Below, piece by piece: positions 14,528-50,384 of a stretch of DNA of 64,000 nt (its first letter is position 1; every line of letters starts with the position of its first letter). Made by a program: the position numbers and the translations under genes. This DNA comes from Guyparkeria sp. SCN-R1 (lineage in GTDB: Bacteria; Pseudomonadota; Gammaproteobacteria; Halothiobacillales; Halothiobacillaceae): NCBI RefSeq assembly GCF_003932495.1, contig NZ_QZMT01000004.1, forward strand, positions 1 to 64,000, read 5' to 3'. Below the pieces are notes generated by a model that worked only from the letters and a program-made list of their open reading frames with translations, was not told the origin of the DNA and made no database searches.

Positions 14528-15240
14528 TCAGTCGCGCATCACGTGCTTGAGAATGCCGACCACCTGTTCGGGGGTGGTCGCCCAGGCCATGGCGGCGGCG
14601 TCGACTTCCTTGAGCGGGTGGACGATCTCCTCGTCGTGCAGAGTGATGTAAGGCGTACCCAGCGCCGCGGTGTAACCGGCGTCGAAGGCGGCGTTCCATT
14701 GCTTGTACTTGTCGCCGAAGCGCACCACGACGACGTCGGCCTGTTCGATCAGGGTCTTGATGCGAATCGCGTTGACCTTGGCGGACTTGTGGTCGCGCCA
14801 GAACTGCTTGGACTCGTCACCGAGCAGGTCGCCGGCGGCATCGCTGGCGGCGTGATCGGTGACCGGGCGGGTGAAGGTGATATCCAGACCGGCATCGTGT
14901 GCGCCCTGCTCGATCTGTTCGCGCGTAAGGAACCTCGGGGTGGATCGAACGGCCTCTCTGGCCTTGCGAGTGGTCCGCCTTCAAGGCGTCCATGTCGATG
15001 GCGTGCCGGGGGGGCACGGCGAGACATGGCAACGAAGAAGGCGGGGCACTCGCAAGGCCCCTTCGGGCGCACCTTTAGCCGGCCATCTGCTGCGTTGCCG
15101 TCCTTGGAAAGGGAATCACCCTTCCGCGGCGGACGGTCGCCTTGCATCTGCCCGGCTCAAGGTGCGCAGAGAGGCCGTTCGATCCACCCCGAGGTTCCTG
15201 GGGTGTGGATCTCGCCGGACAGGTAGACGGTCAGGCTCAT
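14528..15240 (-). pseudogene. ytoQ: YtoQ-family protein, split by an inserted element
   Basis: On the minus strand ATG 15240 opens MSLTVYLSGEIHT, the YtoQ N-terminus, with ribosome site AAGGAG just upstream. The frame then runs into inserted DNA and meets TGA at 15159-15157 after about 27 residues. The rest of YtoQ resumes on the other side (TREQIEQGAHDAGLDITF, then VVRFGDKYKQWNAAFDAGY) and ends at 14528. Deleting exactly 14928-15199 (272 bases) leaves 441 bases, a 146-codon frame reading GEIHTPTREQI, the normal family length. The gene sits 20 bases after ilvD and was presumably its operon partner. YtoQ function is not established. The C-terminal half could only be made from an internal start such as ATG 14728. 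Confidence 0.9.
14928..15199 (+). mobile_element. structured non-coding element, copy A (in ytoQ)
   Basis: A 272-base element with perfect 32-base inverted ends (14928-14959 against 15168-15199). Inside are two hairpins. H1 is at 14960-15059, with arms 14960-14996 and 15023-15059, of which the first 13 pairs (GGCCTTGCGAGTG) are perfect. H2 is at 15067-15167, with arms 15067-15103 and 15131-15167. H1 abuts the outer stem, H2 abuts it on the other side, and 7 bases separate H1 from H2, so the whole folds as a three-way junction. It contains no open frame of note. It interrupts ytoQ, and removal restores that frame. No target duplication is obvious. Two relatives lie at 25317 (reverse) and 50117. 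Confidence 0.88.
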
Positions 15241-25147: not shown

Positions 25148-25234
25148 TGGTGCGGGTGGCCGGACTCGAACCGGCACGGCCTTTCGGCCTGCAGATTTTA
25201 AGTCTGCTGTGTCTACCAATTCCACCACACCCGC
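25148..25234 (-). tRNA. tRNA-Leu(UAA)
   Basis: An 87-base class II tRNA on the minus strand. The acceptor stem GCGGGTG pairs with CACCCGC, the anticodon stem is GCAGA/TCTGC with loop CTTAAAA (anticodon TAA), and the variable arm is long (AGGCCGAAAGGCC). The T arm contains GGTTCGAGTCC, and the 3' CCA is encoded. It reads UUA codons. Confidence 0.97.
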
Positions 25235-25316: not shown

Positions 25317-25590
25317 TTAAGGAGCCTCTACGCGGATGTCATGCCGCTCTGCGCGTCTTGAGCCGGGCAGATGCAAGGCGTTCGTCCGCCGCGGAAGGGC
25401 CGTTCCCTTTTCAAGGACGACAACACAGCAGATGCCCGGCTCAAGGCGCGCCCTGCGGGGCCTGTCGAGCCGCCCGTGCCCGGCGTTGCGTCGCCTTGAC
25501 GTGGCCACCGGCACGCCGGCGACGACGCGCCTTGATCACGAACGGCTCGACCGGCCAGAGTGGCATGGCATCCGCGTAGAGGCTCCTTAA
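25317..25590 (-). mobile_element. structured non-coding element, copy B
   Basis: A 274-base relative of copy A in reverse orientation, between tRNA-Leu and the PreP gene. The outer arms 25317-25350 and 25557-25590 match over 34 bases with two mismatches and begin TTAAGGAGCC. H2 lies at 25351-25451 with arms 25351-25387 and 25415-25451, and H1 at 25459-25556. The linker is 7 bases, as in copies A and C. The H2 arms carry the shared CTTGAGCCGGGCA. Interior identity to copy C is high. The outer-arm sequence differs from copy A but still pairs within itself. Confidence 0.87.
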
Positions 25591-50116: not shown

Positions 50117-50384
50117 GGGAAACTCTGCACGAATGGCATGCCGCTCTGGCCTGTCGAGCCGTTCGTGATCAAGGCGCGTCGTCGCTGGCGTGCCGGTGGC
50201 CACGTCAAGACGGCGCAACGCGGAGCACGGGCTGCTCGCCAGGCCCCGGAGGGCGCATCTTGAGCCGGACATCTGCTATGTTGTCGTCCTTGGAAAGAGG
50301 ATCACTCTTTCGCGGCGGACGAACGCCTTGCATCTGCCCGGCTCAAGACGCGCAGAGCGGCATGGCATTCGTGCAGAGTTTCCC
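50117..50384 (+). mobile_element. structured non-coding element, copy C (rpsO-pnp)
   Basis: A 268-base relative of copies A and B. Outer arms 50117-50147 and 50354-50384 match over 31 bases with one mismatch. H1 lies at 50148-50245, with basal arms GGCCTG and CAGGCC. H2 lies at 50253-50353 with arms 50253-50289 and 50317-50353, and the linker is 7 bases. It starts 20 bases after the rpsO stop and ends just before the rpsO terminator, so it is transcribed with rpsO. No coding frame of note. Confidence 0.88.

Follow-up and report, generated by a model that had tools for sequence, protein, structure and literature searches.

How can the two arms of a fold-back element remain complementary within each copy when their sequence differs strongly from one copy to the next? 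This question is raised by an element present in three copies in a 64,000-nucleotide stretch of Guyparkeria sp. SCN-R1 (contig NZ_QZMT01000004.1, positions 1 to 64,000), to which we refer as the window. A sequence-only reading of this DNA had offered three answers, namely selection that keeps the fold, a process that copies one arm onto the other, or the acquisition of new arms as the element moves. The features concerned are the following:

14928-15199, + strand: copy A, 272 bp with a three-stem fold, defined by inverted repeats, fold z and genome matches
14928-14960, + strand: left outer arm of copy A, a terminal inverted repeat of the GGAAnnTCTGCACGAAT type, in copy A the variant GGAACCTCGGGGTGGAT
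15167-15199, + strand: right outer arm of copy A, complementary to the left arm at 33/33 positions
14960-15059, + strand: hairpin H1 of copy A, defined by inverted repeat and fold
15067-15167, + strand: hairpin H2 of copy A, defined by inverted repeat and fold
25321-25586, - strand: copy B, flanked by TTAA on both sides and near a tRNA-Leu gene (25148-25234)
50118-50383, + strand: copy C of the element
14528-15240, - strand: ytoQ-family gene interrupted by copy A, reading MSLTVYLSGEIHTP / element / REQIEQ...

In copy A, an inverted-repeat search showed the outer arms to enclose H1 and H2, and the fold has a z of about -15.5 on each strand relative to shuffled sequences. The sequence-only reading had described the arms of copy A as perfectly complementary at 32 of 32 positions, which we can extend to 33 of 33, and had correctly counted two arm mismatches in copy B and one in copy C. 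The strong difference in arm sequence between copies is equally real (GGAACCTCGGGG in copy A, GGAGCCTCTACG in copy B and GGAAACTCTGCA in copy C). The further claim that the basal H1 stem is paired within its own copy was broadly correct, but copy C carries two mismatches among the first pairs (T.C at columns 38/125 and C.T at columns 44/119 of alignment A1, which contains 42 main-family copies plus copy A, 43 in total), so that its basal H1 is nearly, not fully, paired. Copy C lies between the end of a short rpsO-like gene and a terminator-like GC-rich hairpin with a T-run.

The pattern of arms matched within and different between copies is general. Hypervariability between the 81 full-length copies is found at arm positions 5, 6 and 18-21, where the two arms of one copy agree in 88-99% of cases; for positions 5, 6, 18, 20 and 21, the agreement amounts to 91, 98, 99, 94 and 94%, as compared to 32-53% expected from composition. 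Of all cells in alignment A1, 97% pair, and two-sided changes occur in 46 of 98 pairs, the paired columns having been chosen by folding the same alignments on which they were counted. The shuffled mean was 17.8, the observed number was reached in none of 500 shuffles, and sliding the partners by 1-3 columns left 13-20 pairs with two-sided changes. Alignment A2, comprising 27 copies of related families that are about two-thirds identical to the main family, yielded two-sided changes in 41 of 89 pairs. Covariation was seen in all three stems, beyond the outer arms. The opposite outcome, with most copies having non-complementary arms, was tested and did not occur. Copies were gathered by arm pattern and similarity to copy A, so that very decayed arms are under-sampled and matched arms favoured to some degree, and the 123 profile-defined copies of the main tests below also depend on this arm-based collection.

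The element family is genus-wide, mobile and without protein. Copy A has 44 matches in its own 2.42-Mb genome, and matches were found in every genus member except one, a 64% complete genome, whereas other genera of the same bacterial family contain almost none; plasmid and phage collections gave no match to the element. Typical elements are about 265-272 bp long, with terminal inverted repeats of 31-33 bp and two further hairpins inside. The ytoQ-family gene interrupted by copy A is uninterrupted in a sister species (L058), where the empty allele reads ...GEIHTDWREQI...; copy A is not bordered by a clear direct repeat, and the GACTGG present in the empty allele is missing there. Searching the concatenated flanks of ten copies revealed contiguous empty sites in sister species for L001, L002 and L004-L009. 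In the set of 116 copies whose ends are GG..CC, YTAR-like sequence borders the element at either end, and 19.8% of these copies, as compared to 5.7% after permutation (p<0.0005), lie between exact direct repeats of 4 bp, most commonly CTAG/CTAG. These data show that the element inserts at YTAR-like targets with a 4-bp target duplication; a 2-bp TA duplication, suspected at single sites, was unsupported. The element is thus MITE-like, being short, non-coding and dispersed in many copies, with terminal inverted repeats, target-site duplication and empty orthologous sites. At one site, L159 (G000 C1:327558-327649) is a 92-bp arms-plus-remnant and L057 (G004) a full 266-bp element, which indicates that short forms can arise through internal deletion in place. 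L038 (G005) and L162 (G000) apparently occupy one site with elements of two different families, reflecting replacement or repeated insertion, and at L046 (G010, 1470-2017) two elements from different families lie almost back to back.

We also searched for a transposase that might mobilise the element. Among the arms listed for G000 and G009, no two face each other in opposite orientation at a distance of about 1-2 kb. DDE_Tnp_1 (PF01609) was found once, in one of 11 genus members, and is not flanked by element arms, and DDE_Tnp_1_2 (PF13586) was found in none of the genus members searched. A 4-bp YTAR target duplication and GGAA-type ends are features of the IS5 group; the YTAR flanks agree with this target, and the ends may resemble those of the group. 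An IS5-type DDE transposase, as would mark an IS5-group derivative, was not found in the genome. Y1-type transposase genes are present in six of 11 genus members and in G172, a distant genome from another bacterial family of the same class, and none was detected in some element-bearing genomes. No element arms lie within the Y1_Tnp loci inspected. None of the candidate autonomous partners, DDE_Tnp_1, DDE_Tnp_1_2 or Y1_Tnp, could be tied to the arms.

Matched arm differences may arise in place or at the birth of a copy, and we therefore set copies that share a site across species against copies from distinct sites. Profile searches yielded 123 full-length copies, among which 15 sites allowed a total of 19 same-site comparisons between species; with one genome per species, these comparisons are species-level and approximate strain-level ones. 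Pairs with 2-9% divergence at unpaired positions were used (6.0% for same-site and 7.4% for different-site pairs). In the outer arms, same-site pairs showed 0.14 two-sided and 1.43 one-sided differences per pair, in contrast to 2.53 two-sided and 1.15 one-sided differences for different-site pairs, which share ancestry and are thus not independent of one another. For H1 and H2 together, the values were 2.57 one-sided and 0.71 two-sided at the same site, and 2.61 one-sided and 1.72 two-sided at different sites. A family-I version of the test gave 0.10 versus 2.0-2.4. Because one-sided drift was similar in the two classes, the matched arm differences appear mostly to have been present when the copies were made. 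Matched arms are thus linked more to the making of new copies than to the time spent at a site, and it is to this extent that the element acquires new arms on moving. The arms do not, however, come from the target DNA, an outcome that the sequence-only reading had named as counting against its view: the longest match of an arm averages 6.39 nt in its own flanks and 6.35 nt in the flanks of other copies, which rules out that arms are copied from flanking DNA.

Paired changes also arise in place. At 14 sites, five two-sided changes were observed versus 0.61 expected (p<0.0005), and at one site (L008/L031/L156), the H2 pair 148/234 is A-T in one species, T-A in a second and C-G in a third. Over all comparisons in place, one-sided changes nevertheless far exceed two-sided changes (82 versus 17). 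Moreover, at three of 15 sites (L179/L226, L296/L302 and L298/L043), one species carries the element in the opposite orientation to the other within the same flanks, as expected if arms recombine or templates switch. Arm-to-arm copying has clear limits, though. The inner arm positions 23 and 26 (A1 columns 24 and 27) are A/G-mismatched in 40 of 81 and 30 of 81 copies, respectively, with the same left/right sense across family-I copies. This asymmetry, possibly a left/right end marker, counts against unrestricted arm copying, which would erase it. Likewise, a G172 variant in which position 18 is G in one arm but C in its counterpart has multiplied while remaining unmatched. Taken together, the 23/26 asymmetry and the unmatched G172 sublineage imply that arm copying is at most partial and not obligatory, while the paired changes in place and the inversions speak for its contribution. 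The two inner-arm mismatches are transition-type, lie near the three-way junction in otherwise matched arms and occur in several families. Arm matches in G172 number in the dozens, and their GGAACC sequence hardly varies, suggesting a recent element burst; the elements of this genome (e.g. L317-L326) are often located at contig ends and include longer 339- and 620-bp forms with extra internal sequence.

To see how the stems relate to one another, we computed linkage as Cramer's V over 72 family-I copies. Partner positions are tightly linked (V=0.72-1.0), though the outer partners are about 260 nt apart. Linkage is likewise high inside one stem, at V=0.51-1.0 for the outer arms and 0.55-0.94 for H1, whereas it drops across stems to V=0.03-0.41 for the arms versus H1/H2 and to 0.02-0.25 for H1 versus H2. 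Two pairs tested inside H2 showed weak mutual linkage (V=0.23); stem-wise linkage is therefore supported for the arms and H1, but not for H2, which may comprise more than one linkage unit. Simple descent would link all positions, and replacement of an interior block would link H1 with H2. As H1 and H2 are mutually unlinked, gene conversion that exchanges the entire interior en bloc is disfavoured. Same-site interiors that are closer to a paralogue than to the orthologue do exist, most clearly at L298/L043, but not as a rule.

We favour, at slightly less than even odds (about 0.48), the interpretation that this is a MITE-like fold-back element born with matched arms, whose stems are kept matched partly by arm-to-arm copying or recombination. 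It builds on the mobility, the target repeat, the family-wide covariation, the lack of RNA-strand bias described below, and the inversion and paired changes in place, together with the near-independent linkage of the three stems and the association of matched arm differences with different-site copies. Copies would be born with matched arms. In source lineages, each stem would be matched as its own unit because its two sides anneal and are copied onto each other or recombine. Possible routes include template switching at replication, arm-arm recombination as in IS terminal repeats, and repair of a folded transposition intermediate. After insertion, the two sides would drift mostly independently and be re-matched only occasionally. 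Of the three options originally offered, arm copying would thus hold in part and new arms would come with new copies, leaving selection on an RNA fold as the disfavoured one.

That last option, a structured RNA whose pairs are kept by purifying selection on the fold after insertion, draws on the very stable three-way fold and on the lower divergence of stems in place as compared to unpaired positions (3.3% versus 5.7%). However, the unpaired positions change nearly as fast as the flanks (7.6%), and elements invert in place. Selection on an RNA fold would tolerate G-U on the transcribed strand, but not A-C. When counted at pairs predicted on both strands, G.T and A.C mismatch cells were balanced on the H1-to-H2 strand (39:35 and 38:29), such that a greater tolerance of G-U was not seen and neither strand stands out as that of an RNA. 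Two-sided changes private to one copy (28 and 28, 56 in total, with 10 of the second 28 in the outlier L019) and private one-sided changes (62 and 75) had indistinguishable transition:transversion ratios (17:11 versus 33:29, and 15:13 versus 35:40; p about 0.65), indicating that two-sided changes do not pass preferentially through a wobble intermediate. An Rfam scan of the window returned two tRNAs only and no match to the element. Given these data, an RNA function of the fold is highly improbable.

We regard as somewhat doubtful that matching is selected only at mobilisation, in which case the mobile form would have to fold as single-stranded or cruciform DNA, only paired-stem copies would spread, and recombination between sources would give new matched combinations with no physical arm copying. 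Such selection would fit the contrast between same-site and different-site pairs, the near-zero linkage between stems and the missing strand bias, as DNA would give, and REPINs, in which compensatory changes are common, have been proposed to move as single-stranded hairpins (PMC3116915). Yet it leaves unexplained the excess of paired changes in place (5 versus 0.61) and the two-sided transversions private to one copy; in addition, swapping both outer arms at once needs two exchanges, no copy was found to combine the main arm types, and a mismatched sublineage spread in G172. Plain descent from several old sources, each with matched terminal repeats like any TIR transposon and with arms differing only by source, appears quite improbable. 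It would account for the few arm types recurring across species (GGAAGG..CCGAT, GGAAAC..GCCAT and GGAACC..AGTAAT) and for arm type being more clustered on the weakly resolved interior tree than shuffled labels, but at least 13 arm-type changes are still required on this tree (21.1 with shuffled labels), the arms show hardly any linkage to H1 or H2, and numerous matched variants are confined to a single copy.

Bacterial MITEs such as ERIC and Correia/NEMIS are short, non-coding and dispersed, with terminal inverted repeats and target duplication, and the element shares these features; it differs in its three-stem architecture with stem-wise linkage and in that no autonomous partner was found among DDE_Tnp_1, DDE_Tnp_1_2 and Y1_Tnp. 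For ISWpi1 of Wolbachia, an IS5-family element with a transposase, 23-bp repeats and a T(T/A)A target, terminal-repeat recombination inverted the interior and converted one repeat at 9% of loci (Ling and Cordaux, 2010, PMC3004938). Like ISWpi1, the element here has arms matched within copies, is inverted in three of 15 same-site comparisons and has flanks (YTAR) that broadly resemble the ISWpi1 target; unlike ISWpi1, it is devoid of genes, has two additional hairpins, shows matching in the internal stems as well and retains an arm asymmetry in many copies. REPINs and BIMEs, mobilised by RAYT transposases and rich in compensatory changes (Bertels and Rainey, 2011, PMC3116915), are likewise short fold-back units that encode no protein and occur in many copies, and six of 11 genus members have Y1-type genes; the present element, however, is about 265 bp long with three stems and 4-bp direct target repeats, and no arm copies lie beside the Y1 genes inspected. 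Finally, template switching, known as quasipalindrome correction, homogenises inverted-repeat arms and inverts spacers (PMC8604942). Its predicted matched arms, clustered changes and spacer inversion are all seen here, but such cases mainly involve short spacers, whereas some 200 nt separate the outer arms here, and matching shows mostly when different-site copies are compared rather than in place.

The element may also move via a folded single-stranded DNA intermediate in which the sides of each stem pair and their mismatches are corrected either ahead of insertion or in its course, new copies being re-matched stem by stem. We consider this specific route unlikely, but if it were true, the transposition cycle would act as an error-correction and allele-switching step, which would explain why partners 260 nt apart are almost completely linked and neighbouring stems assort almost freely. 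Divergent arms that nonetheless match are usually taken as proof of RNA-structure selection. Here, covariation is as strong as in a structured RNA, yet neither strand is favoured as an RNA and the covariation goes mainly with the copying of a mobile element, so that caution is needed when covariation is used to discover RNAs in repeat families. With dozens of copies, several species and same-site comparisons, the family provides a natural system for measuring how inverted-repeat arms stay matched.
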